Positions 26,778 to 60,207 of a stretch of 61,339 nucleotides of DNA are shown piece after piece. Within the stretch, counting starts at the first letter, position 1, and every line of letters begins with the position of its first letter. The DNA is from a virus: positions 1 through 61,339 of the IMG/VR virus record IMGVR_UViG_3300021959_000036. One strand, given 5' to 3'. The translations under genes were made by a program, and so were the position numbers. The notes beneath the pieces are model-generated. The model did not search any database, had not been told where the DNA came from, and worked only from the letters and a program-made list of their open reading frames with translations.

Positions 26778-29700
26778 TTAAACTCCTGTCACGGCAAAGT
26801 CTATTTGTGGTGTTATAACGTCTGATGTTCCATCAGGAGTTAATATATCGTGTGCTGATGCGCCGTTCGCAAAATAAACTGATACATTTGCTCCTTGTAA
26901 CCCTCTATCCAGAATAACTGCTTGTGGTAAAGCTATTTGGTTAGAACTTGCAGATACAGACAATGAAGTAATTTTAGGAATTTGAGTGTACCCCATTTGG
27001 CTGTAATCTATATTAACTACTTGTGTATCTACAGTCACAATTTCTGTGAATGTTTTTTCATCTAATGCAACTTGATACCTAAACTGATCTAATAATAACT
27101 CGGCTTGTGTTGGGTCTGTGTTAGTTACTTCATACTTAAATTGTAAGTATCTAAAAGTTCTAGCACCTGTAACAAAGTTACTAAATCCATCAGAATTAGC
27201 TACAGTAGTGAAGGCGCTTACATTAACATTACCATTAGCATAGAATGGATTATCTGTTGAGTATCTAAATAATAGATTACTTGTAACAATTCCTACAGTC
27301 CCATAAAAAGTCGATGACTCAGATAAATCTAGCCACTGTTTTAAGTTTACCAGTTTATAGGAGGTTCCTGCAACTGTTAAATTTGAAAAACCGTTACTTC
27401 CTGTAGATCTTCCATTAGCATACCAAGAATCTCCTAAAACAATTTCATCATCACTAGAAACCCCAGCGATTAGAGAAAAGACATTTGCATTTGAGTCATC
27501 TCCGTCAAAATTACCTAGAGTAACAATTCCGAATACATTAGCAGGAAAAGACCCTGAAATACCACTTACCAAAGTCTTATTCTCTACTCCATATGTTACT
27601 GTTGCAGCTCCTGTGTTAGAACTACCAAGAATTTCTCCTATACCCAAAGTACCGGAAAAATCTATATCTTTCAATATACCCGCACCAGAAGAGGCTTCAG
27701 TTACTTGATCTCCACCTATTTGGTCTGTATAATCTAACCAAGTAGATTTAAGAGATTGATCGCCTACAACAGTAGCAGATATAGATCCTGTTATTGTATT
27801 ACCTAAATCTCTAATCTGAGTTTGATAAACTGCATCTGATAAAGCTCTTAAGTCTGTAGGAGAGCCGCTAATTACACTCCATCCAGAGGAAGTTCCGTTA
27901 GAGTTGTCAACTACACTAGAGTCAAAAGCACTATCTGCTTTGGCAAAAGCCAATCCTCCAGTATTTGAGTCGGCAAAACTTGGAAAGTTTGTTTCTCCGT
28001 CATTTGCATTTGTAATACCAGTAATAAATGAAGTACCTGGGGAGTCTTCATTATAAGCTCTGTAAATATTAGTAAAACCTTGCGCAATAGAAGTAAAGGT
28101 AGATGCTACAATTGTTTCACTAAATATACCTGATGTATCTTTTGTTCTAGCTAAATATGTGTATTGCCCAAACTGATCAATATCTACAACAATTCTGTTT
28201 GTTCTAGCATCAACGATAGCGACTTCATCAGATCGAGGCCATAAGTCTAATAAGGTTGCTTGATCTGTAGCTACTTGTCCTGCGACTCTTCTTATTTGAA
28301 CTTCCATTAGATCAAGGTCAATATTGTCGCCTGTTACAGGATCAATTTGATATTTCCAAACAAAGAGGAGAGTATCGCCTGCCTGTCCAGCAGCAAAGTT
28401 TAGTACGTTTCGAGGTGGAGCAAGTTTTCCTATAATTTCTTGTGTTTTAGCAACTGTAGAGCCTCTAATATTTTTATTTAAAGGAGTAACCCTAGCAGTA
28501 ACAGTATTAGGGTTAGTATTTAATCCTTTTTCTATATTATCTATTTTAAATCTAATTTTACCATCAGAATCTACACCAGCAGCAGAAACTTTTACAGTGT
28601 TAAAGGATGTTAAATCTCCTGTAGCAGTTCCAGTTATTTTGTATGAAATTTCATAATCAGTAACTTCTTGTCCTTCAATATGGTCAAATATAATAATAGC
28701 TCTAACAGCTACACCAATTGTAGAGTCTTTATAAATTTCTTCTATAATATTTAAGTTAGAAACAGCTTTGATAGGAATGTTTCTTACAACAACTTCTTTT
28801 TGTACAAAGTCACTACGTCTTCCAAACTTATTAACATTTCTAGCCCTTACTGCGTGAACACCTGCTTCTGCTCTGTGTATATATCTAGTATTAGTACCAC
28901 TATCAAAATCTAAAGGAGTGAAGTTATCTAAAGGAACGTTTAGTCTGTAAACTGCATTATTAGCTAAATTTAGTAGACCTGGAAATCTTGTATGATCGTA
29001 ATCAAAAGTAAAAGTTTTTGCTCCAACATTTAAATTTCCTACAAGTCCAATAGGATTTGGAGTAACATTAATTGCATAAGCTTGGGCTACGTTAGATTTA
29101 ATGTTATCATCTAAAGTAACTCTAAATATACCATTAGCAGTTAGATAAGCATTGTAAGAAGGTGCTCCGATATCAAAAGTAGTGTCTGAAATTCCATAAG
29201 TATTACCTACATTCCAAGTCACATTGTCTCCTCTTTCGATAATAGGAGGAGTATAAACATTTGCTGTGACTCTAATATCAATATTAGCTTCTGCTGTAGG
29301 TAAAGAGGATAAAGAAATACTAACCTGAGAATTGGCTAAATTGTCTAACCCTTTTTCTAGAGTAAAGTTTGATGTTGCTTCATTATTTAAAAATACATCT
29401 ACAAACCCTGAATGCCTAACTGAAATACCAAGAGGTTGTTTGAAGGTATGAGTTTCAAATAAGTTAGTAGTTGTAGCTACATTTGTTCTGACTACCTCTA
29501 AATAATTACCAGTTACATAAAGAGTATTATTAGCAAAAAATCTATGATCAACTACCTGGGGTACGTTTATGAAAAAAGGAGGATTAGGAAGTAAACTTAC
29601 TAATTGTGAAGCGCCTGAATGATCATTATCAATTTTTATCGTGTGAGCAGATTTATCAAATCCAACTACGTTAGCACTATATCTTGCTAATCTAGTATCT

Positions 29701-32700
29701 GATCCTATAAAACCAAGTAACCCTGCAGCGTCTCCAGAACCTCCTTGAACTTTTTGATTTATGGGTAAAGAAATTCTATCGTTACCTTTTAAGCCTGCAA
29801 AATCAAAGGTATTATTTACGTCTAAAACATGTATATCGGAACCAAAGTTTTTATCAATTATTCCACCAAAACCAGATACTGATAAAGAAATATTACCATT
29901 TGCTTTATCAGGAGCTTCGTCTACTTTAGAATATCCATGAACTAACAAACGGGTGGTTGCAAATTCAAAAGAATAACCATTTTTCCCATAAATTATACAA
30001 GACTCTCCTTCTGTTACATTTTCAATATTGTCTAAATTCATTTCTACAATATCTCTAGATGCTTGAGGAGTAGCGTTAGAAATTAACTTAAGTGAGGTAG
30101 TAGGCCTAGACCGATAATACTCAGTTCTAAATTCATTTGAATACCCAGTTCTATCTGTTACAGCATTAATTTCAATATCTGTATATACTGACCCGTCTAA
30201 ATCCCTTTTTGGAATCGAACGAAGAGTAAATTGAGGAGCTGGAGGTTTTCTAAGGGGATCAAATAAATCATTGAATAATAAAGGGGAGTAGTTAATCAAA
30301 GTATCAGAATCAGTATAAACTGTAGGGATATACTCTGTAGCTTCTACATCAATTTTTTCTTCTTTGTCTCTTTTTAGATTAATTATTCTAAAAAGCTTTC
30401 CAGATAAAGAAGTGTAAATATCAGTAGGATCATTAATCTCTCCTAAAGACCAGACATCATACCTTTTAGGTCGGTTTAAATCACCCCAAGTAATAGTATC
30501 AAAACTTTTATTTTCATTATTCCACTTAGATAAAGCAACCACTTCAGCGATTTCAGTCCCTCCAGAAACGTTTGCAGTATTACTAAGGCTATAAGAAGTA
30601 TTACTAATTACGTAAGTATCAACATGCCCATTTTTTGTACTAGCTACTCTTAAGGCTAGAGGCCCTGAATTAGCAGTGAAGATGGTGCTAGTCAAAGAAG
30701 GAGCGCTAATATGTTCTAATTTAATATTAGATGTTGAAGCCCCGCTACTAGGAGTATCTTCAAAAACAATGCCTCCATAACCCCAAGAAACACTAGCACT
30801 TTTTTGAGATACAGAAATTACATCTCCTGGTTTTAACTCAGAAGCTTCAGAAGTGGTTTTAAAATTAACTTTTCTCCTAGAGTATTTTTTGTCAGCAATC
30901 ATATATTGCGCTAATCTAATAGCTTGACTTTTTCTTGTTATTCCATCCGTTGCTATATCAATAACATTTTCAATACCGTTTCTTTCGTCTAATGCGCGAG
31001 CATCATCAATTCTAAGAACTTCCTGCCTATAATGATTAGTAGGGTCTGTATAGGTTATATTAACACCAGTAATTAATTCTTCTTCATCAATTCCTGATAT
31101 ACTAAAAGTGTCTTTTAGTATATTAGTTTCATTAAATATAGCTACAGGTAAACTATCAGGTCTGTCTTGGAATAAGAATAACTTTCCGTTTTTATAGAAT
31201 AAAATAGCTCTAAAAGTGATTGTGATTATATTAACAACATCCATAACCTGTTTTTTATCACCTAAAGACCCATCGTATATAAACCGACGCTCTTTAACAG
31301 AAGTACCAGGAGGTAATCCTTGTAAAGTTTCAGAAACAGAACTTTTAGTGGTCCTTGGTTTATTACGGTAAGTTCCGTCTGCTGCCGCGTCAACTCCTTG
31401 AAATATTCCTGTAGTGATATCACAAGCATCACAGTATACAGCAGCGTCATAAAACGAGTATCTATCAATGTGATCCTCTGGTATGCCTAATCCATAAGAA
31501 CTATTAGTAAGCATATCATAAATTACCCAAACAGGGTTTTGAGTCCAAGAGTAAACAAATTGACCGTCCCATAATCCGTCATATATTAAAGGAGAGCTTT
31601 GAAGAGTGGGACCTGTTTTTTGTAGTCTAAATTGATAAGTAGACCTATCTGCATCTGATACTTCTACCTCTCTCCAATCAATTTCTCCGTTTTCTAAAAT
31701 AGGCTGATTGTAGTTAGAAGGAACCTTTATTAATAAGCCTTTTACCATCTGAGTAATTGCAGGCATAGACCCTTTATGTTCAGCAAAAGCTTTTAAAGCG
31801 TACCCAACTGTAGCTGTTCTTACATACCCAATAGGAGTCTCAATTACCTCAGTCCAGCCCTGGAAAGCGACATTTTCTTGAACTTTAGAAGAAGAATTGT
31901 CTGCGCTTGTTTTTTCTATTGTAAAAAGATAACCTAAATCAGAAACGTGTTCTGCTGGAATAGCAAGAAATAAATCAAAAGAATATGCAACATTTGTCTT
32001 TCCTGAAATAGTTCTTTCTTTAAAAGCAATTTCAGTAGTCCCAGTCCTATCATAAACAGTAGCCTTTACTGTAACAGAACTTCCTAAAATGTCGCCATTA
32101 GTGTTTTGTTTTTGAAGTCCTCCGATAGTAAAATAAAATTTAATAGCGGTCAAAGCAGTAGGACTAGTATTTTGTTTATCTACTGAAGATCTAGCTACTC
32201 CATCTAAGTTTCCTTTTTTAAGCTCAGTCGCTCCAGAGAGTCTTTGAGGAACAAATACAAAATCACCAAATAGAGGTAGAGGTTGTTGAGATACTGTTCC
32301 TGTGTTATTAAATATAAAGAACTTTTCATCATCTACTAAACCATTAATTAATAGATCATCAATAAGCCCTTCATTAAACTCGATATCTTGAGGACCATTA
32401 GGATTAATTCTGTAAATAGGTCCTTCGCCTAGTCCAAGTTGAAGAAATAAAACATCAGTTGAGAATAAATTATTTGGAGTTTCTGTACCGCCACCGCCAC
32501 CGCTTTTACCTCCGCCACCGCCATTGTGTACCTTAATACCATTAGCAATGTAAGAGTGTAAGTGAGATACTTTAAAATTGTATACAGGTTCTTCTTTTAA
32601 AAACTCTATTGAATTAATTTTAGATAATTGGTTATCTGTTGTTAATAATCTATCTCCAACAACAAAGTCTCCCATTTCTTGATATTCACCATCTTCTTTA

Positions 32701-32975
32701 AGAACCCAGTGATTTAAGGTAATATCAATATTTCCAGTTTCATGATTAACTCTATAGATTTTATCTTTTTGATGATAAAAAGTTTCAGTAACAAAAGATA
32801 AGACAGGCCGACCTATTTCATCATAAGCCCATACTTTATCTCCGACTTCAATATCACAAATTTGTTTTTGACCGTCTTCAATAGAGATAAGAGTGTCAGA
32901 GGCAAAACAGCCTCCACCACCTCCGCCTCCTTCAATAAGAGGAACTGCTTTATCATCAATATAAATAATAGTCAT
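26778..32975 (-). CDS. Tail tip / host-specificity protein J-like, with Hint domain insertion
   Basis: 2065 residues. Residues 1-22 are followed by a seven-Gly run, a Hint domain (23-151), another Gly-rich linker (152-163), and then a J-type body. NLFSTDVLFLQLGLGEGPIY matches the J N-terminal region, and LLIKVPSNYNQP, YDGLWDGQFVYSWTQNPVWV and MLTNSSYGLGIPEDHIDRYS match the central J hub. Fibronectin-like repeats follow (ISNLNI...YEISYKI region near 1430) and then long receptor-binding parts. It forms the central tail fibre and hub. Its position after I- and K-like genes agrees. Confidence 0.9.
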   Translation of the reverse strand: MTIIYIDDKAVPLIEGGGGGGGCFASDTLISIEDGQKQICDIEVGDKVWAYDEIGRPVLSFVTETFYHQKDKIYRVNHETGNIDITLNHWVLKEDGEYQEMGDFVVGDRLLTTDNQLSKINSIEFLKEEPVYNFKVSHLHSYIANGIKVHNGGGGGKSGGGGGTETPNNLFSTDVLFLQLGLGEGPIYRINPNGPQDIEFNEGLIDDLLINGLVDDEKFFIFNNTGTVSQQPLPLFGDFVFVPQRLSGATELKKGNLDGVARSSVDKQNTSPTALTAIKFYFTIGGLQKQNTNGDILGSSVTVKATVYDRTGTTEIAFKERTISGKTNVAYSFDLFLAIPAEHVSDLGYLFTIEKTSADNSSSKVQENVAFQGWTEVIETPIGYVRTATVGYALKAFAEHKGSMPAITQMVKGLLIKVPSNYNQPILENGEIDWREVEVSDADRSTYQFRLQKTGPTLQSSPLIYDGLWDGQFVYSWTQNPVWVIYDMLTNSSYGLGIPEDHIDRYSFYDAAVYCDACDITTGIFQGVDAAADGTYRNKPRTTKSSVSETLQGLPPGTSVKERRFIYDGSLGDKKQVMDVVNIITITFRAILFYKNGKLFLFQDRPDSLPVAIFNETNILKDTFSISGIDEEELITGVNITYTDPTNHYRQEVLRIDDARALDERNGIENVIDIATDGITRKSQAIRLAQYMIADKKYSRRKVNFKTTSEASELKPGDVISVSQKSASVSWGYGGIVFEDTPSSGASTSNIKLEHISAPSLTSTIFTANSGPLALRVASTKNGHVDTYVISNTSYSLSNTANVSGGTEIAEVVALSKWNNENKSFDTITWGDLNRPKRYDVWSLGEINDPTDIYTSLSGKLFRIINLKRDKEEKIDVEATEYIPTVYTDSDTLINYSPLLFNDLFDPLRKPPAPQFTLRSIPKRDLDGSVYTDIEINAVTDRTGYSNEFRTEYYRSRPTTSLKLISNATPQASRDIVEMNLDNIENVTEGESCIIYGKNGYSFEFATTRLLVHGYSKVDEAPDKANGNISLSVSGFGGIIDKNFGSDIHVLDVNNTFDFAGLKGNDRISLPINQKVQGGSGDAAGLLGFIGSDTRLARYSANVVGFDKSAHTIKIDNDHSGASQLVSLLPNPPFFINVPQVVDHRFFANNTLYVTGNYLEVVRTNVATTTNLFETHTFKQPLGISVRHSGFVDVFLNNEATSNFTLEKGLDNLANSQVSISLSSLPTAEANIDIRVTANVYTPPIIERGDNVTWNVGNTYGISDTTFDIGAPSYNAYLTANGIFRVTLDDNIKSNVAQAYAINVTPNPIGLVGNLNVGAKTFTFDYDHTRFPGLLNLANNAVYRLNVPLDNFTPLDFDSGTNTRYIHRAEAGVHAVRARNVNKFGRRSDFVQKEVVVRNIPIKAVSNLNIIEEIYKDSTIGVAVRAIIIFDHIEGQEVTDYEISYKITGTATGDLTSFNTVKVSAAGVDSDGKIRFKIDNIEKGLNTNPNTVTARVTPLNKNIRGSTVAKTQEIIGKLAPPRNVLNFAAGQAGDTLLFVWKYQIDPVTGDNIDLDLMEVQIRRVAGQVATDQATLLDLWPRSDEVAIVDARTNRIVVDIDQFGQYTYLARTKDTSGIFSETIVASTFTSIAQGFTNIYRAYNEDSPGTSFITGITNANDGETNFPSFADSNTGGLAFAKADSAFDSSVVDNSNGTSSGWSVISGSPTDLRALSDAVYQTQIRDLGNTITGSISATVVGDQSLKSTWLDYTDQIGGDQVTEASSGAGILKDIDFSGTLGIGEILGSSNTGAATVTYGVENKTLVSGISGSFPANVFGIVTLGNFDGDDSNANVFSLIAGVSSDDEIVLGDSWYANGRSTGSNGFSNLTVAGTSYKLVNLKQWLDLSESSTFYGTVGIVTSNLLFRYSTDNPFYANGNVNVSAFTTVANSDGFSNFVTGARTFRYLQFKYEVTNTDPTQAELLLDQFRYQVALDEKTFTEIVTVDTQVVNIDYSQMGYTQIPKITSLSVSASSNQIALPQAVILDRGLQGANVSVYFANGASAHDILTPDGTSDVITPQIDFAVTGV
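32523..32909 (-). other. Hint (intein-like / BIL-like) domain inside the J-like protein
   Basis: Residues 23-151 show intein-type splicing blocks: Cys at the first position (CFASDTLISIEDG, block A), DITLNHWVL with TxxH (block B), and VYNFKVSHLHSYIANGI then KVHN (blocks F and G, terminal His-Asn). Residue +1 is Gly instead of Cys/Ser/Thr, so canonical splicing is not expected. N- or C-terminal cleavage, as in bacterial intein-like domains, is possible. No homing endonuclease is inserted. Both flanks are poly-Gly. Confidence 0.8.
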
Positions 32976-44047: not shown

Positions 44048-44370
44048 TAGCGTCTCACCTTTGAAGCAGCTTCTCTAGCTTTACGTTGTTGCTCGTAATG
44101 AGTAGCAGCTTCTACAACACAAACTTGAAGAAGATCGAAAACTTCTTCACTGTCGTCGATTTTATATATACGCATTATGTCTCCTAGACCTGCGTAATCT
44201 TTACCTAACCATAGACCGTTCATTCCTTCAACCTTATCGGGTAAAGCGTTAAATAGTCTTAGAGCTTGTTGTGCTTCATAACTTAGTTCATGTACCTCTG
44301 GCGGCATTTCATCAGGGTTAGGATCCCAGCCCATCTGTTCACACATTAACAGATACTGGTCTTGGGTCAT
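44047..44370 (-). CDS. Tail assembly chaperone, downstream (T-like) part
   Basis: 107 residues from the internal ATG (MTQDQYLLMCEQMGWDPNPD, then EMPPEVHELSYEAQQ). Size and position match the T half of lambda G/GT, which is normally made only as a -1 frameshift extension of G and recruits the major tail protein to the tape measure. The frame is open upstream through the slippery site at 44409, supporting that it is read as a fusion. Overlaps the tape measure gene by one base. Confidence 0.75.
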   Translation of the reverse strand: MTQDQYLLMCEQMGWDPNPDEMPPEVHELSYEAQQALRLFNALPDKVEGMNGLWLGKDYAGLGDIMRIYKIDDSEEVFDLLQVCVVEAATHYEQQRKAREAASKVRR

Positions 44371-44837
44371 TCCCCCTGCTTGGAAGTTGTGCCGGAGGTA
44401 CTTTTCGAGTTTTTTGAGTCTTCAGCCTTTTTACTAATCGAAAATTGTTCGTAGTCATTCATGGCGTCAGTAACAAACTGATCAAAAATAGTAGAATTTT
44501 GTAGAAGATCAAGTGCGTCTTCTTCTGAATAGTCTACTGCCTCATCTTTATCCATAGAGCTAATATCTACTGGAAGAAGTTTTGGAAGAGAGCCTACTTT
44601 AAGACCGCTCCATCCTTTAATAGCTCTACGAGCATATTCTTCAATAAACTTATCGTTATCAATTTCTTCTTCTCGTTGACGAGTGCGCTTATTAAATTTG
44701 TATGTAAGACTTGCATTTCTAATTTTCATTAGGTCATCTCGACCAAGATAAACTAGGTTAACTACGAAACCTTCAATATCAGGAAACTCTACGTCAATTA
44801 CTGTTTCCTTAGCCATTAAGTTTGAGATTTTACTCAT
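44367..44837 (-). CDS. Tail assembly chaperone, upstream (G-like) part
   Basis: 156 residues: VEFPDIEGFVVNLVYLGRDD and KGWSGLKVGSLPKLLPVDIS are typical of siphovirus tail chaperones that coat the tape measure before tube polymerisation. It ends with a polar linker (KAEDSKNSKSTSGTTSKQGE). GAGGGG 8 bases before the ATG is a strong ribosome site. A slippery A AAA AAC spans codons 141-143, 14 codons before the stop. Confidence 0.8.
   Translation of the reverse strand: MSKISNLMAKETVIDVEFPDIEGFVVNLVYLGRDDLMKIRNASLTYKFNKRTRQREEEIDNDKFIEEYARRAIKGWSGLKVGSLPKLLPVDISSMDKDEAVDYSEEDALDLLQNSTIFDQFVTDAMNDYEQFSISKKAEDSKNSKSTSGTTSKQGE
44409..44415 (-). promoter_or_regulatory. -1 ribosomal frameshift site A AAA AAC in the tail chaperone pair
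   Basis: On the minus strand TCA AAA AAC of the G-like frame contains the heptamer A AAA AAC in the X XXY YYZ phase. After a -1 slip the new frame reads LEKYLRHNFQAGG and enters the T-like protein at its Met without a stop. The predicted fusion is about 263 residues (143 plus 120). This is the expected place for the G/GT frameshift. Confidence 0.85.
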
Positions 44838-44845
44838 TTATTTTT

Positions 44846-44970
44846 CCCCTCTGTGTTAATAATAAAAAGGGTGCTCACTATAGTTTTCAACGCCTGTCAA
44901 ACTGAGGGGGCAAGTTTGACGTTTGTTAATAGTGAGCACCCATATGGAATTAAATTTTACCCCCTCAAAG
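44846..44970 (-). terminator. Structured terminator between major tail protein and chaperone genes
   Basis: On the minus strand GGGTGCTCACTAT (44941-44929) pairs perfectly with ATAGTGAGCACCC (44881-44869) and is followed by TTTTTATT. Nested inside is GTCAAACT/AGTTTGAC (44920-44913 and 44903-44896) with loop TGCCCCCTC. The loop is complementary to GAGGGGG at 44966-44960 just after the major tail protein stop, and to GAGGGG at 44851-44846, the ribosome site of the chaperone gene. Likely limits read-through and may regulate chaperone translation. Confidence 0.75.
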
Positions 44971-44980
44971 TTCATTTAAT

Positions 44981-46234
44981 TTACTTTTCTACAATAAGTG
45001 TCATTTCATCTCCAGTACCCTTAGTTGTTTCTTGGGCAAGGAAGTTGACAGAAACACCAATCACATCTTCAATAGCATGAACTGGAAGTTCGAACTGAAC
45101 TCTTGGCATATTAATGGCAAAGAATGGTGCAGTTGCGCCACCAATTTTAAGGTTAGCGTTAGAAGTAGCTGCAGAAGAGGTACGACCATCTTCAACAATC
45201 TGCTTCAAGAACTGAGCTGAGTTATCTGAGCCACCACGTAAGTATGCACTTAGAGATCCAGAAATTGCACGAGCACCGGCAAACTGACCAATTGGTGAGT
45301 TAAGAGCTGCTAGTTCTTCTGGTGTTAAGTATGTGATGTTGTTATTGTAATCAAAACTGAGTGCTGTAACTGGGAATGTAAAGTCAATACCCGCTGCAGA
45401 TGCACTTTCAGCGTGCTTAACATCAATTGTTGAAAGTCTATTCTTAATGAAGCTGGCTGATGATATTGTGCCAGAAACATTATAAGAGTTCCAAGGATGA
45501 TATGAAGCTTCAGCTGTCAGTGCATACTGATTAGAGTTGGCTGTTACATCTGTCCCAGCATTTAGAGTTCCGCCGAATACAGAAACAGCATTGTTTCGTT
45601 TATCATCGCGAAGCTCAATCAAGTTTGTTCCGAAGCCTGTCCAAGTGGTCGTAGCAATGCCATCAATTGCGGCATCAACAGAACCTTGGTTAACAGTAGC
45701 GTTAGAAACTTGATAAAAAACGTTATCCATTTTAAAGTATAGATGGTACTCAGTTGCGGTAGCGAAGTTAGAGGAATGCTGGAATACGTTTGATCCAGCA
45801 GCTCGCTCGCCAAGTGCAAATTTACCATCAGCCTGCCAAGTACTCTGAAGTTCTGATCCAGAAGCAAAAGCAGTATTACTCATTAGTGCTTGCCACATAA
45901 ACCAATCAGCACAAGGCATAGAATTACCTTCAGCAGCCTTATTTGAACCACCTGCGGTCTTTGTAAGACCTGTTGGCTTTAGATAGGCCTGGAAGTTCCA
46001 GTCAACTGGGTTTAGGGCAGTATTAAATCTTTGTTGTGAACGATCAGGTGTTAGACCACTTTCGAGTGATGTAATATCCTGAGTTGCAGCAGCCTGTGAA
46101 ACAGCATAACCAGCAAGAATTTCTACTTGCCATGTGTTTGCAGGAGTCAGGGCTGTTACTGTCGCACCGCTGGCAATATCAACGGTGGACATAAACACTT
46201 TTGTGTTTCTTTGTAGGTTAAGTTGGGCTGACAT
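44981..46234 (-). CDS. Major tail (tube) protein
   Basis: 417 residues, Ala/Ser/Thr/Asn-rich and beta-rich with few charges. It begins MSAQLNLQRNTKVFMSTVDI, has a mid-region ITSLESGLTPDRSQQRFN, and ends in FELPVHAIEDVIGVSVNFLA. The position between tail terminator and chaperones, and the GC-richer codon use, fit the most abundant tail protein. It polymerises into the tail tube around the tape measure. A promoter lies upstream of its partner gene and a strong terminator follows it. Confidence 0.85.
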   Translation of the reverse strand: MSAQLNLQRNTKVFMSTVDIASGATVTALTPANTWQVEILAGYAVSQAAATQDITSLESGLTPDRSQQRFNTALNPVDWNFQAYLKPTGLTKTAGGSNKAAEGNSMPCADWFMWQALMSNTAFASGSELQSTWQADGKFALGERAAGSNVFQHSSNFATATEYHLYFKMDNVFYQVSNATVNQGSVDAAIDGIATTTWTGFGTNLIELRDDKRNNAVSVFGGTLNAGTDVTANSNQYALTAEASYHPWNSYNVSGTISSASFIKNRLSTIDVKHAESASAAGIDFTFPVTALSFDYNNNITYLTPEELAALNSPIGQFAGARAISGSLSAYLRGGSDNSAQFLKQIVEDGRTSSAATSNANLKIGGATAPFFAINMPRVQFELPVHAIEDVIGVSVNFLAQETTKGTGDEMTLIVEK

Positions 46235-46781: not shown

Positions 46782-48083
46782 TTAAAAACCTCTTATAATT
46801 CTAAAACGTTCTCCATACACTCTTTTTACTACATCTCTTATAGACCCTTGTAGCAAAAATCTAGGCGCTCTAGCGCCTCTTTTCTCATGTACACGATAAT
46901 TAGGAGCATAGTAATATTTAATTATATTGCTTCTTATATTTTGCATTACTTTAATTGATTCTACAAATTGACCAGTTCTATAAGTTAGTACAGTAGGACT
47001 GAGAGGTTCTCCTCTTTTTGGTCCTCTAGGCATTCGGCGCTCTGTCTCTTGCTGTACTAAAGCAGTTAACTGAATATCAGAAATAACTTTTAGTCTTGTA
47101 GCAGCTTTTTTTCTTTTTGTCTTAGCTACTATACTACCTCTTCCTAAAAGAGCAGATCCTTTGTCATATTCAATCACAAATTGACCTTTCATTTGACTAT
47201 TTAAAAACTGAATTACTTGAGGAGAAAATTGGGCAAACTCTGCCGCTAAATCTCTTGCCAGTTGACTACTGATTTTCTTTAGTTCCACATCTAAACGAGC
47301 ATTTGCGTTATTGAGCGATTTTCTAACTTCTGCTTCGGTAAAATATATTTGAAAAAATACTTCGCCTTTTTTACCTTCTGTTACTTTTATCTTAGCTTTC
47401 GGGTTACGACTTATTTGTTTCCATGACCACCCGATTGATTTTACTATTCTTCTATTACCCACTTGAATAGGGACTCTAATATTTGCAGATTTTAGTTCAA
47501 AGTTTTTTCTTAATGCGATAGCAGCAGGAGATCGGCTTTTATTTAAAAAAGCTTTTAACCCGCTATTATCATTTTTTAAAGCTAGTAGTTGAGAAATAAA
47601 AGATTTTGAAAAACTTACATCTTCTTCTACTGCCCGTGCCGCGCCAGTAGCATCGGTAGAAAAACCTGTTAATAATCTACTAGTACGCCTTAAATTAATA
47701 CCCTTACCGCCTGCCACTCCTATCTCTCTAGCCCGAGTAACTTGTCCAGAGGCGTCTACTCTTGTAGAAATAGCTTTACCTTCTGATACGTCTACCTCTC
47801 CTTCTTCATCATAGGTTATAAAATCAGGTATAACACCAGATCCAGCTTTACCTTTTATAATAGTACCACCTAAATTTTCGACAACGGCTCTATCCACAAG
47901 ATTAGATAATCTAGAGTAGATACTAAATAAAGCTTTAGATAAAGGTTCATTGTTAGGTTTTAGATAAAATCGAGCAGGGCCTATTTTTTGTCTAGAATTA
48001 AATAGTAAATCTAAAGCTTGTGGCCCTTTAAAAACTCTTCCATCAGGACCAGTAACTCTTACATTATTGACCACCTTAAGCAT
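46782..48083 (-). CDS. Putative neck / tail-completion protein, 433 aa
   Basis: Not confidently recognised. Basic, Arg/Lys-rich. The end (PNYRVHEKRGARAPRFLLQG, SIRDVVKRVYGERFR) and PSPTVLTYRTGQFVESI-like region resemble HK97 gp10-type tail-completion proteins, in which VHE and a C-terminal basic helix are common, but it is about three times longer than that family. The position between connector and tail terminator supports a head-tail joining role. A 1-base stop/start overlap joins it to the connector gene. Confidence 0.5.
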   Translation of the reverse strand: MLKVVNNVRVTGPDGRVFKGPQALDLLFNSRQKIGPARFYLKPNNEPLSKALFSIYSRLSNLVDRAVVENLGGTIIKGKAGSGVIPDFITYDEEGEVDVSEGKAISTRVDASGQVTRAREIGVAGGKGINLRRTSRLLTGFSTDATGAARAVEEDVSFSKSFISQLLALKNDNSGLKAFLNKSRSPAAIALRKNFELKSANIRVPIQVGNRRIVKSIGWSWKQISRNPKAKIKVTEGKKGEVFFQIYFTEAEVRKSLNNANARLDVELKKISSQLARDLAAEFAQFSPQVIQFLNSQMKGQFVIEYDKGSALLGRGSIVAKTKRKKAATRLKVISDIQLTALVQQETERRMPRGPKRGEPLSPTVLTYRTGQFVESIKVMQNIRSNIIKYYYAPNYRVHEKRGARAPRFLLQGSIRDVVKRVYGERFRIIRGF

Positions 48084-49381
48084 TAAATGATCACTCTATA
48101 TAAATCTAAAATACGCCGGATATGAGGGGGAAAATTAGAACTTAACTGTCTATCCTGTACGTTCTCTCCTTGAAAAGTGAAACCTTGAGATTCTTGACGG
48201 TCTTTATGAAGCATTTTAGCATAATCCATAGTAGCCATTAAAAGGTCGTTAGGAACACTACCAGAAGCATACCCTGATTTATAAGTTACACGAACTCCAC
48301 GAGGATAGTTTTTAAATACAGCAGCTCCTACAATTGTAAGACCGAAGTCTCCTGTTCCATCTCCAATATTCTTAGTAATTTCACCAGTATTAGGATAGAA
48401 TAAAAAGTCTTCTACAGAAGCATGATCATCCGCAAAATCAGAATTATCGTTAGCACCATCAAAATGAACTAGTAAAACAGTGTCATCATCTGTCGCGTGT
48501 TGATAAGAAGGAGCAGTAAAAGCAGCAGTATGTCTTGCTACATGAGAAATACGAGTCTCATCAATAAAACCATTAAAATATTTATAACTAGAGGACACGT
48601 TCTGACGAGCAAATTCTAATTGAGCGGAAATATCCGGCATTACATTAGAGGTTGTTTGTGAAGCAATAGAAGTTCCATCTCTGTACAAATTCCAAGAAGA
48701 ACCTGATCTTACGATTTCTACATGATGAAAAGTATTAGCTGAATAACCAGTTGATGCTGCGTGTGTTACATTTACAACCTCAGTACCTCCAAATACTGCT
48801 CTAAAAGTAAAGCCATTTGTAGTATCATAACCGAGGGACCAAAGATTATCTGCATCCGCAGCTTGTGAGATAAAAGTAGTATTTGCAGAGTAAGAATTTG
48901 ATCTCACTTGCATATCAATAGTAAAATCGGAATCTCCAAAATACCAGTCATTTGAATCTGCTAAAAATATAAAATCATCAGAACCATCAAAAAACACAGA
49001 GGAGTCCCCGAACTTTTTATATCTAGTTTTTAAGACGGGTCCTCCACTGCGAGTTAAAGTGTGATTTGAATCAATTCGAGTTACTGAAGATCCGTCTGAT
49101 TGTGGATTATTTAATTTTCGGTAAGCAGTACCATCATATTCAGAAATAGAGTGTACATCTTGTAAAGGAAGTCGAGAAACAAAAACTGAAGACTTTCCTC
49201 CATCAAAAACTTCTGAATAAGAATTACTTAGAACTTCGTGTCCAATGTAATTTTCTACCGCACCACAAGCAAAAGAAATAAGATTGCTGAGTCTAGCATC
49301 TTCATTAGAGCTTGTAATATTTAGATAATTTTTTATCTGTGCTAAAGTTACATATGGATATTTACCATAATTGCTAGACAT
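48083..49381 (-). CDS. Head-tail connector (gp6-like) with inserted LamG domain
   Basis: 432 residues. The ends form a small helical connector: YVTLAQIKNYLNITSSNEDA and LSNLISFACGAVENYIG at the N-terminus, then YKSGYASGSVPNDLLMATMD and YAKMLHKDRQESQG at the C-terminus, as in HK97 gp6-type adaptors (about 110-150 residues). Between them (about 115-310) lies a LamG/concanavalin-like beta-sandwich: SVFFDGSDDFIFL, FTIDMQVRSNS, FHHVEIVRSGSSWNLYRDG, FIDETRISHVAR, LLVHFDG. The insert probably projects from the neck and may bind glycans. Confidence 0.8.
   Translation of the reverse strand: MSSNYGKYPYVTLAQIKNYLNITSSNEDARLSNLISFACGAVENYIGHEVLSNSYSEVFDGGKSSVFVSRLPLQDVHSISEYDGTAYRKLNNPQSDGSSVTRIDSNHTLTRSGGPVLKTRYKKFGDSSVFFDGSDDFIFLADSNDWYFGDSDFTIDMQVRSNSYSANTTFISQAADADNLWSLGYDTTNGFTFRAVFGGTEVVNVTHAASTGYSANTFHHVEIVRSGSSWNLYRDGTSIASQTTSNVMPDISAQLEFARQNVSSSYKYFNGFIDETRISHVARHTAAFTAPSYQHATDDDTVLLVHFDGANDNSDFADDHASVEDFLFYPNTGEITKNIGDGTGDFGLTIVGAAVFKNYPRGVRVTYKSGYASGSVPNDLLMATMDYAKMLHKDRQESQGFTFQGENVQDRQLSSNFPPHIRRILDLYRVII
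48452..49039 (-). other. LamG/concanavalin A-like lectin domain within the connector
   Basis: Residues about 115-310 read as a complete LamG-type jelly roll, with the usual sequence of strands from FDGSDDFIFL to LVHFDG. Such domains are normally found in fibres or extracellular proteins that bind sugars. Its boundaries coincide with a loop of the connector fold. Confidence 0.75.
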
Positions 49382-49719: not shown

Positions 49720-52700
49720 TTAGGCGAGTGTTCTGATTGTTGCAGCGTAGCCGTAGGTGGAAGAAACGTTTGCACCTGCGCCTGAGCCAGTGGTTGAGAG
49801 AGCCTTGAAGTCAAAGCGTGTGCTCATGTACATCGCTGTGACCTGCTGGCGGGGTTCGTACTCGCTCTCGATCTCCATACCACGTCGTTCTGCGATCATC
49901 CAGCCTGGCTTGTAGACTAGAGCACCGATGTCGGCTGAGTTTGAACCAACGTTATCAAGGAATTCAGTAATAACAACTGGAATACCATAGATTGCACCAA
50001 CAGAACCTGTGAGGTATGTTGCGTTTGGACCAAACTTGTCAACTGTGCGGAAGTCTGAAGTTGTGACTAGCTCGTTGTAACCTTCAATTGTGGTGAGGTA
50101 TACGAGGTGATCACCAAGCTGTAGACCATATTTGCCCATAAGAGCGCGAGCTGATGCGATATTTGCGGCAGAAGCCTTTGTATCACCATCGGCGGTGCGA
50201 ACTGATAGACCGTCTGTAGCAACTTGGTTAACCATTGTGGTAATACCCTTAACAACAGAGGCATAAGTTGATGTGCCACCTGGGTTAGCTGTGAATCCAG
50301 TAAGAGCACCAGTACCACGAAGGATTGCCTTATCAATTGACCGTGATAGACGACGGGTTGCTGCGCGACGGAGGAAGTCGATTAGAGGAAGAACTGTATC
50401 CTCTTCTTCGTCCTTGGCAAGATGGGTTGTAACCATGAACTTGTGTGGTGTAAAGTCTACTGACTTAATTGCGTTCTGGTTTGAGGTTGGGACGTTTGTG
50501 GTATCACCAACACCTGTGGCATATGTGCCAGAAGCGAATTGTGCTACCTGATCGTCGGTATCCTCATCGGCTACGGGGACACGGAATGTCTTCGCATCGA
50601 CCTGGATTCTATCGAACATAGGAGCGATAACGAGCTGCTGCTCCATTTCTTCGTAGATATTTGTTGAGAAGTTGCTTAGGAACTGATCAACTGAAGTGAC
50701 GGCCTTAATCTGATTACCGAGTTTGGTATCAAATGGGTCACGACGATTGAGAGCCTTAGCAAGAAGGAAAGCATTAGCCATTTCCTTTTCAGAATACTTG
50801 CTTGAAGTCTTCTGAGCTTGATAGACATGCTTGCTATCAGAGATTGCTTTAATCTCGTCTTTATATTTTGCGATCTGAGACTTGAGTTCATCAAGTTCTT
50901 CACGAGTTTGACGGGTTGATTCACCGTGGCGGTCAACTTCGTCGGATTCTTTTAGAACAGCTTCACCAGCTTTTTCAACTAGCTTTTCTGTGTTGTTTTC
51001 TCCAACTTTTACACTGGAGACTTCCTCTGCGGCCTTTTCTACAACTGTTTCAGTTGCAGGAGCAGCCTTTTCAGTCTCTAGTACAATTGGATCACCTGCA
51101 TTTTCGGTTGCCATTGTTTCATTCTCCTTTATAGTCTTAGTAGTCTTATGACCGGTTACTAATAAGGCTAGATCCTTGGAAGTCTCTTCGCCATCGTTGC
51201 AGTCAATACTCTTAAGCTTTTCGATGTTATTAATCATCATTTTAGCAATGTGGTAGTTTGTATCATTCCATTCTGTGGATGGGACAGTGGTTAGGTTAAT
51301 TGTTTTATTCAGCTTTTCCTGTAAAAGTTCACTATTTTTAATAGCTTCGTTATCTTTTACTGCATAAAGCTCTTGCTCAGAAAGTGTGACTAGGTTTTCA
51401 AAATCTTCTTTAATTGAAGCTCTTTCTCCGTCACTTAGATTTTTAAATTCTGTTACTGAAACATCTAAATCAAATTGTGATCCGATGTCCCAAAAATTCA
51501 CTACTGATAAATTTTCAGCAGGGATCGTAACTGTATTATCTAATGATTTTCCATTTAAGTCAACTTCTAAAAATTGAAAAATAGGGTTTTGGGCAGTAGC
51601 AATTTTTACAGTCTGATACCTTTTACCCTCATTTTTTACAAAAGCACCATTTTTAATTTGTGCGGTTTCTGCACTAAGAAGATTAACAAAAGGAATTAGC
51701 TCATAAGGATCAGATGAAAGGTTTACGACCTCTTCATCATCATCTTCCTCAGATAGTTTCTCAATGTCTACGTCTTCAGCAAGATTGACTTCCTTAATAA
51801 TTTCCTTCTCTTCTTCTTCAGCGGCAGCAACAATGACTTCTTCTGTTTCGTTTGTTTCAACGTCTTTAGTCATAGTATTCTCCTCTTCAGAATATAGAGT
51901 AACAGATGAATAATTAGGGTTTTTAGACCCACCGTTTGCCTCAGTCTCACTAGGAGACATAGGACGGGCTTCTCCATCTGTCTTATCAGGTGAATCAACA
52001 TTGTTAGAAGGTTGAACTAAGAACACAATTTCGTGACTGTGCCCTTCTGCTTCTTCAATAGTATAATTCACAATTTTGTGATAATGCTTTTGGCCATGAG
52101 AGGAATAGGTAGTAACACCATTGCCACTATCATCCATTTCCATAGTATGATAATGACCAGCTTTGCTACCAGTTATTCCGACATAAATGCCTTCCATCAT
52201 TTTCACTTCGTCTTTTAGACTAGCCTCTTTGAGACTATTCTTAAAGTCTTCATATTCATCGTTAGATTCAAAACTTTTTCTAACGCTGAATAAGCTTTCT
52301 TGGTTGCAAGGAACGGATACAACACTAATTTCGTGAAGTTCTACATCAGTAATTTGTGTTGTGTCTGTATTTCGATCATAGCGACCATCCTTAACGCGGA
52401 ACCCTACAGAAAAGCTCTTTAAAGCTCCGTCATTAATAAGTGTTTGCACACCGTGAAGTTTTTCTGCTGCGTCACTAACGTATGCCTCAACAAAAATACC
52501 TTTACGATCTACAGAAATCTTTTGAACACGCCCAATTGGTTTGTTATGATCGTGTTGATAAAGAAGAACAGGATTTTTGCGATAATAATCAACGCCTTTG
52601 GCCCATGCATTGGCTGTAATGATATCACCCGCTCGATCTTTATCGGTGGTGTTAGCATAGCCTGCAATAACTAGACCTTTCTTCTTTTTAGTAGCACGTT

Positions 52701-52743
52701 TCTCAACCGTTAGAGGGCTGTATACATGAAACATTTTTTCCAT
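49720..52743 (-). CDS. Prohead protease - linker/scaffold - HK97-type major capsid protein fusion, 1007 aa
   Basis: Residues 1-158 are an HK97-family prohead serine protease: AGYANTTDKDRAGDIITANA, LLYQHDHNKPIGR (His 64 or 66), GALKSFSVGFRV (Ser 112) and DVELHEISVVSVP. Residues 160-545 hold a His-rich segment (GHYHTMEM, GQKHYHKI, EGHSHEIV), acidic low complexity and an unknown domain. Residues 545-645 look like the delta/scaffold coiled coil. Residues about 660-1007 are the HK97-fold capsid protein (MANAFLLAKAL, APMFDRIQVDAKTFRVPVAD, LVYKPGWMIAERRGMEIESE). Internal ATGs at 51873 and 51114 have strong ribosome sites. The capsid part is clearly GC-richer. Confidence 0.9.
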   Translation of the reverse strand: MEKMFHVYSPLTVEKRATKKKKGLVIAGYANTTDKDRAGDIITANAWAKGVDYYRKNPVLLYQHDHNKPIGRVQKISVDRKGIFVEAYVSDAAEKLHGVQTLINDGALKSFSVGFRVKDGRYDRNTDTTQITDVELHEISVVSVPCNQESLFSVRKSFESNDEYEDFKNSLKEASLKDEVKMMEGIYVGITGSKAGHYHTMEMDDSGNGVTTYSSHGQKHYHKIVNYTIEEAEGHSHEIVFLVQPSNNVDSPDKTDGEARPMSPSETEANGGSKNPNYSSVTLYSEEENTMTKDVETNETEEVIVAAAEEEEKEIIKEVNLAEDVDIEKLSEEDDDEEVVNLSSDPYELIPFVNLLSAETAQIKNGAFVKNEGKRYQTVKIATAQNPIFQFLEVDLNGKSLDNTVTIPAENLSVVNFWDIGSQFDLDVSVTEFKNLSDGERASIKEDFENLVTLSEQELYAVKDNEAIKNSELLQEKLNKTINLTTVPSTEWNDTNYHIAKMMINNIEKLKSIDCNDGEETSKDLALLVTGHKTTKTIKENETMATENAGDPIVLETEKAAPATETVVEKAAEEVSSVKVGENNTEKLVEKAGEAVLKESDEVDRHGESTRQTREELDELKSQIAKYKDEIKAISDSKHVYQAQKTSSKYSEKEMANAFLLAKALNRRDPFDTKLGNQIKAVTSVDQFLSNFSTNIYEEMEQQLVIAPMFDRIQVDAKTFRVPVADEDTDDQVAQFASGTYATGVGDTTNVPTSNQNAIKSVDFTPHKFMVTTHLAKDEEEDTVLPLIDFLRRAATRRLSRSIDKAILRGTGALTGFTANPGGTSTYASVVKGITTMVNQVATDGLSVRTADGDTKASAANIASARALMGKYGLQLGDHLVYLTTIEGYNELVTTSDFRTVDKFGPNATYLTGSVGAIYGIPVVITEFLDNVGSNSADIGALVYKPGWMIAERRGMEIESEYEPRQQVTAMYMSTRFDFKALSTTGSGAGANVSSTYGYAATIRTLA
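51112..51129 (-). promoter_or_regulatory. Internal ribosome-binding site and start for the capsid part
   Basis: On the minus strand AAGGAG (51129-51124), nine bases and ATG (51114-51112), in frame at codon 544. It would yield a 464-residue delta-domain plus capsid precursor (MATENAGDPIVLE...), close to the usual size of an HK97 capsid precursor. Confidence 0.6.
51871..51887 (-). promoter_or_regulatory. Internal ribosome-binding site and start for the middle part
   Basis: On the minus strand AAGAGGAG (51887-51880), six bases and ATG (51873-51871), in frame at codon 291 (MTKDVETNETEEV). Marks a second place where separate genes may have been fused. Confidence 0.5.
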
Positions 52744-59956: not shown

Positions 59957-59964
59957 TATTCCCC

Positions 59965-60207
59965 TCAATATTTTCTTTTTGGATTTCTAATCACTTGATT
60001 TTTAAATGGTGTTTTTGATGCACACCACTCATCATACCCCATATATCCTGGCTTTTTACCAGAGGGTTTGGTGACCATTCTACCGAGGGGAGTGTAGAAT
60101 TCACACCAGTCTTGTTTTTCTTTGTAACGACGATCAGAAGATGCCTGTTCCCAAGCACCCCCTGATCTAGACTTTTTATCACGATAGCGATAACGAAGTG
60201 TCGCCAT
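59965..60207 (-). CDS. Small basic protein, 80 aa
   Basis: Not recognised. Arg/Lys/Tyr-rich: MATLRYRYRDKKSRSGGAWE, EKQDWCEFYTPLGRMV, KKPGYMGYDEWCASKTPFKN. Two Trp-Cys pairs (DWCEF, EWCAS) 36 residues apart may bind metal or form a disulfide. A one-base stop/start overlap (TAATG) joins it to the preceding 46-aa gene. Confidence 0.55.
   Translation of the reverse strand: MATLRYRYRDKKSRSGGAWEQASSDRRYKEKQDWCEFYTPLGRMVTKPSGKKPGYMGYDEWCASKTPFKNQVIRNPKRKY

Follow-up and report, generated by a model that had tools for sequence, protein, structure and literature searches.

At the step from the tube protein gene to the tail assembly chaperone gene, the viral DNA analysed here (61,339 nucleotides, positions 1 to 61,339 of IMG/VR record IMGVR_UViG_3300021959_000036; hereafter, the window) carries a conserved cis-acting RNA whose anatomy, two hairpins with complementary loops, is well supported by comparison with related loci. 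The comparison of sequences establishes that this anatomy belongs to the sense strand and keeps a fixed place. We put at roughly 0.5 the probability that leaky termination, combined with a loop 2 that alternates between loop 1 and the ribosome site of the chaperone, sets a step-down in expression from the tube protein to the chaperone and the low-copy tail genes.

Results

The gene for the major tail (tube) protein (44981–46234, minus strand) encodes 417 amino acids and matches phrog_3575, major tail protein, with an E-value of 3.5e-52; its product shares ∼27–30% identity with T5-like tail tube proteins. It is followed by a tail assembly chaperone gene (44367–44837, minus strand, 156 amino acids; phrog_313, E-value 5.4e-17). 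The tube protein TAA occupies 44983–44981 (minus strand) and the chaperone ATG lies at 44837, leaving a gap of 143 bases in which, along the message, hairpin 1, hairpin 2, a U-run (TTTTTATTATT) and the GAGGGG ribosome site of the chaperone follow one another. No promoter-like site was found on the minus strand of this gap, and the genes that follow it (chaperones, tape measure and tail tip) are encoded on that strand as well. We also considered, and set aside, a readthrough or bypass of the tube protein stop: this codon is TAA in 146 of 153 regions and TAG in 7, and the window has a further in-frame stop soon after it. The end of the chaperone gene (44367–44378, minus strand) looks like a −1 frameshift site for a fusion of the lambda G/GT type, with most relatives ending in A AAA AAC TAA and the window's clade in CAG GGG GAA TGA overlapping the next start.

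The earlier note on this DNA had described a perfect 13-bp outer stem and an 8-bp inner stem between the two genes, and we found every one of its elements in place. The 5′ arm of the outer stem of hairpin 2 (GGGTGCTCACTAT, 44941–44929, minus strand) pairs at 13 of 13 positions with the 3′ arm (ATAGTGAGCACCC, 44881–44869), a stem also found by RNAalifold. Within it, the predicted fold has a short middle helix of AAC (44927–44925) with GTT (44891–44889), whose counterparts in relatives are CUUGC/GCA or AAC/GUU. The alignment places the 3′ side of this helix together with an asymmetric, purine-rich bulge (GAAAACT) at 44891–44882. A purine or A/U bulge between the middle and outer stems recurs in nearly all clades, as GAUAU, GAUC or GAAAA types, and could serve to bend the hairpin or to bind a protein. 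The inner stem (44896–44920) joins GTCAAACT (44920–44913) to AGTTTGAC (44903–44896) at 8 of 8 positions; its exact 25-mer occurs in 19 IMG/VR stretches, and it covaries in relatives. It encloses the terminal loop TGCCCCCTC (44912–44904, minus strand), which contains the CCCCCTC of loop 2 (44910–44904). Directly 3′ of the outer stem lies the intrinsic-terminator-like U-run (44868–44858), a position that is T-rich in relatives too.

In order to follow this structure across related phages, we scanned IMG/VR with tail-protein queries and two DNA patterns and obtained several hundred loci; one tail-protein scan gave 303 stretches encoding relatives. All element-bearing relatives are uncultured metagenomic contigs. 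The broad DNA pattern scan also returned G+C-rich chance matches, which were removed by composition and context. A scan of bacterial genomes for relatives of the tail protein, and hence for prophage or host evidence, found none. From the loci fetched by protein similarity we took the regions 3′ of the tail-protein stop, 133 distinct sequences. Both loop motifs, including the CCCCTC core of loop 2, were present in 133/133 of these protein-anchored regions and in 0/2660 mononucleotide shuffles.

The earlier note had named covariation in relatives among its checks, and the structure does covary, with many compensatory changes in the outer stem and hairpin 1. Among 47 representatives, where the events counted are not independent (as in every covariation count made off the tail-protein tree), changes on both sides were seen at 13 of 13 outer-stem pairs, and 97.4% of cells were paired versus 58.3% in shuffled alignments. 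The outer stem contained 32 G-U and 2 A-C pairs when read in the sense strand, and this excess of G-U over A-C indicates that the selected strand is the sense RNA. Given no prior structure, RNAalifold recovered both hairpin 1 and the outer stem; 15 of the 17 pairs carried compensatory changes. When the window's clade was left out of the alignment, 90.8% of cells were still paired, versus at most 52.6% when the structure was slid by 1–3 columns, and there were 156 double-change cells versus 50 in shuffled alignments; both-side changes remained in 4 of 5 pairs of hairpin 1 and in 12 of 13 of the outer stem. Trained on this alignment, from which the clade was absent, a covariance model matched the window at 44980–44869 (minus strand) with 56.9 bits and an E-value of ∼1e-10, and other loci of the clade at 1e-9 to 1e-10; by the tool's own statement such E-values are rough, and the ranking is clear. 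The same model gave no second convincing match within the 61-kb window.

Hairpin 1 (44948–44981, minus strand) begins at the tail-protein stop codon. In the window, AATTAAAT (44981–44974) faces ATTTAATT (44955–44948), and an inner pairing joins TTTG (44969–44966) to TAAA (44959–44956) with one G-U. This version of the hairpin is A/U-rich and weak; in relatives it is strong and covarying, as in AAACTGCGC-TTGAGGGG-GCGCGGTTT (L133), GAATGCAC-TTGAGGGG-GTGCATTC (L139) and AATTCATGAA-AGTTGAGGGG-TTCATGAATT (L177). The best contiguous stem around loop 1 averaged 8.2 bp, versus 3.8 bp in shuffled flanks. Loop 1 itself, GAGGGGG at 44966–44960, lies 14 bases 3′ of the TAA and is complementary to loop 2; GAGGGG is found 8–26 nucleotides (median 14) past the tail-protein stop in all relatives. 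Because the relatives place this upstream GAGGGG in a hairpin loop, the element consists of two hairpins with complementary loops. The pairing of loop 2 with the upstream GAGGGGG had been proposed earlier as a pseudoknot: the complementarity is universal, but kissing loops fit better than a pseudoknot with a single-stranded tail.

Complementarity between loop 1 and loop 2 extends over 6–14 pairs in every representative. Its core, UGAGGGG/CCCCUCA, is nearly invariant, which leaves no room for covariation. One position further out, the pair was G-C in 35, A-U in 12, G-U in 11 and another combination in 5 (Fisher p 5e-7, uncorrected). Placed on the tail-protein tree, changes at this edge pair came to 5.3 same, 0 opposite and 6.7 no difference (median p 0.06), a covariation that is supportive of a contact between the loops but not proof of it. 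The predicted duplex energy in the window, which excludes any geometric cost, was −18.4 kcal/mol for loop 2 with loop 1 versus −13.3 kcal/mol with the ribosome site, and loop 1 was the stronger predicted partner in 93 of 102 distinct sequence sets. From this universal complementarity we infer that the two loops can kiss.

The window has a G+C-rich stem followed by a U-run, the pattern of an intrinsic terminator; a simple terminator scan did not report the site because it permitted loops of at most 8 nucleotides. In relatives, the 8 bases 3′ of the outer stem were 65% T, versus 31% and 29% in neighbouring parts. At least five of these eight positions were T in 55 of 73 clusters, and at least four consecutive U followed the stem in 46 of 73, the run being weak in the remainder. 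In 65 of 73 clusters the outer stem had a G at its base. Several clades have no U-run and few U after the stem (e.g., GCTTTATG and ACCTTATG). Thus the termination suggested previously is plausible, but its signature looks like that of a terminator in most clades and not in all. Any termination here must be partial, because the downstream genes share the strand and no promoter-like site was found on it within the gap.

The ribosome-binding site of the chaperone gene, GAGGGG at 44851–44846 (minus strand), repeats loop 1; of the 46 genes listed for the window, no other has this site. Loop 2 pairs with this Shine-Dalgarno (SD) sequence over 6 bp and with loop 1 over 8 or more, and no other listed gene has an upstream region that matches loop 2 as well as that of the chaperone; the G-run at the chaperone end is its second-best partner among gene starts. 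As a ribosome site it is mediocre, with a 4-base anti-SD match, to which the last two G of GAGGGG add nothing, compared with a 7-base match for the tail protein. GAGGGG was kept in 113 of 150 distinct relatives. Upstream of representative chaperone starts it occurred in 33 of 49 cases, and upstream of the remaining ORFs of these loci in 2 of 212. Just one further GAGGGG was noticed in the window as a candidate ribosome site; it lies at 59961–59966 (minus strand), immediately ahead of what may be an internal start (ATGAGGGGTATCATGGAACAA) in a small ORF.

Masking of the ribosome site by loop 2, the second step of the switch envisaged in the earlier note, is plausible on these counts, but the two sequences do not evolve together. 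We saw no covariation between the ribosome site and loop 2, and the base after GAGGGG never changes with loop 2. GAGGGG was present at the chaperone site in 40 of 63 clusters and absent from 23, with ∼11 gains or losses on the tree, and whole clades (the L128, L133 and L150 types) have no ribosome-site match to loop 2. Given these absences, this turnover and the lack of covariation, masking would plausibly be a common but optional layer. There was no visible trade-off between the U-run and the ribosome-site match (29/20/17/7).

Discussion

Siphophages need many copies of the tube protein and few of the chaperone and tape measure from one late operon. Because one of its loops also matches the chaperone ribosome site, the RNA, carried within a polycistronic late message, probably sets a lower output of the chaperone. 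In the reading to which we give about even odds, hairpin 2 and its U-rich tail would in most members form a leaky intrinsic terminator. In messages that read through, loop 1 and the chaperone ribosome site would compete for loop 2. With loop 1 free to hold loop 2, the ribosome site would be open; a ribosome terminating at the tail-protein stop would cover hairpin 1 and release loop 2, which could then mask the ribosome site. Heavy translation of the tube protein would thus hold the chaperone down. The direction of this switch is a guess. The position of loop 1, so soon after the tail-protein stop, suggests that a ribosome located there may exert the control; the footprint of a terminating ribosome brings hairpin 1 within its reach. 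In the tail module, the −1 frameshift that occurs within the chaperone gene is already known as a ratio device (PMC5009743). If our reading is true, a conserved RNA at the step from tube protein to chaperone would be a concrete answer to how the ratio is set.

A stricter version, in which the element senses translation and governs tail assembly, with chaperone output falling as tube protein output rises and leaky termination as a second layer, we regard as possible but doubtful.

Similarly tentative is an explanation in which the element combines a leaky terminator with a protector of the mRNA 3′ end. Here, the kissing hairpins and the U-tail would terminate most messages past the tube protein gene and give them a compact 3′ end resistant to exonucleases, keeping tube protein mRNA abundant, and the ribosome-site match would be a by-product of G-rich sites. 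The T-rich bases right after the outer stem and the G at its base are what such an element would have, and the loop-loop contact persists where the ribosome-site match is lost. However, some clades have few U after the stem, the strong over-representation of GAGGGG is confined to the chaperone ribosome site, and a strong terminator would starve the downstream tail-tip genes, as the gap has no promoter-like site from which to resume.

The loop core is invariant and an asymmetric, GAUAU-like bulge recurs, which suggests that more than base pairing is under constraint, as would be expected if a late phage protein (the tube protein or the chaperone, for example) bound the kissing structure or the purine bulge as an operator, repressing chaperone translation or protecting the message in the manner of autogenous control. 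We consider this improbable, since three-way complementarity also accounts for the invariance. A DNA-level element (a replication, packaging or recombination signal) that is only incidentally an inverted repeat is very improbable: the outer stem in the window is indeed a perfect inverted repeat, but the pairs favour G-U over A-C in the sense strand, place and orientation are fixed between the same two genes, and hairpin 1 keeps its loop complementarity without perfect arms. A DNA cruciform was rejected on the same G-U bias. Functionless chance complementarity of G- and C-runs has a negligible probability, for although neither GAGGGG (14 versus 9.1 expected) nor CCCCCTC (3 versus 1.9 expected) is in significant excess across the window, and the 161-nucleotide window region folded alone gives only a moderate z of −2.5 (2 of 200 shuffles being equally good), chance is refuted by the universal conservation and covariation in relatives, the match of the held-out covariance model, and the presence of both motifs in every protein-anchored region and in none of the shuffles.

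The RNA family is absent from Rfam and is found in hundreds of uncultured phage contigs. At gathering thresholds, Rfam release 15 had 0 matches in the window, and permissive settings gave chance-level matches only, the highest scoring 14.7 bits where the cut-off was 43. At the DNA level the window shared only short chance matches with cultured phages, and similarity searches found no cultured phage with the element. Three cultured T5-like (Demerecviridae) phages had neither loop motif and no covariance-model match; in them, the gap is short and another gene comes right after the tail protein. Literature searches found no published description of the element. An intergenic RNA that sets differential expression is of a known kind; this family, in which a loop-loop contact is combined with a ribosome site that copies loop 1, is a new form of it.

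The closest documented logic is that of E. coli infC-rpmI, where translation of infC disturbs a pseudoknot whose two sides lie at the infC 3′ end and shortly ahead of the start of rpmI (PMC6962249). As in infC-rpmI-rplT, a structure between two genes would control translation of the downstream gene and be opened by vigorous translation of the upstream one; there, however, the ligand is a ribosomal protein, L20, and the contact a pseudoknot, whereas here complementary hairpin loops are followed by a U-tail. The E. coli system is therefore a precedent for upstream translation opening an intergenic pseudoknot.

In the repZ/repA genes of IncI and IncL/M plasmids, a hairpin loop reportedly pairs with a distant stretch near the ribosome site, work attributed to Asano and Mizobuchi in 1998 and Athanasopoulos in 1999, and expression is said to depend on whether an upstream reading frame is translated and on which of its alternative partners the loop takes. 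The element resembles these in having a hairpin loop with a distant complement near a ribosome site and alternative partners. The plasmid pseudoknots are cited in PMC10724649. There, the pairing activates a replication gene and an antisense RNA blocks it; here, in contrast, loop 2 would act by masking the ribosome site, with loop 1 as a rival partner in cis.

The T7 terminator after gene 10 is a partial intrinsic terminator past a major structural gene, and the element would likewise stop transcription incompletely where high-copy structural genes give way to low-copy ones. Unlike it, the outer stem described here encloses ∼47 nucleotides with an inner stem, there is a conserved loop-loop contact, and the U-run is not universal. 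In OxyS-fhlA kissing, as here, a C-rich loop is complementary to a G-rich ribosome site; OxyS is a trans-acting small RNA, whereas the element acts in cis and has its competing partner built in.

Elsewhere in the window, a head-tail adaptor-like protein (48083–49381, minus strand) has an apparent inserted domain of ∼220 residues with matches to portions of baseplate and virion proteins from phages (phrog_13163, phrog_701 and others). A single ORF of 1007 amino acids (49720–52743, minus strand) has an N-terminal match to a head maturation protease and a capsid-like C-terminal part, which suggests a protease-capsid fusion. A tail protein of 2065 amino acids (26778–32975, minus strand) has, by eye, an N-terminal Hint/intein-like stretch (CFASDTLISIEDG...HSYIANGIKVHN) between glycine runs.
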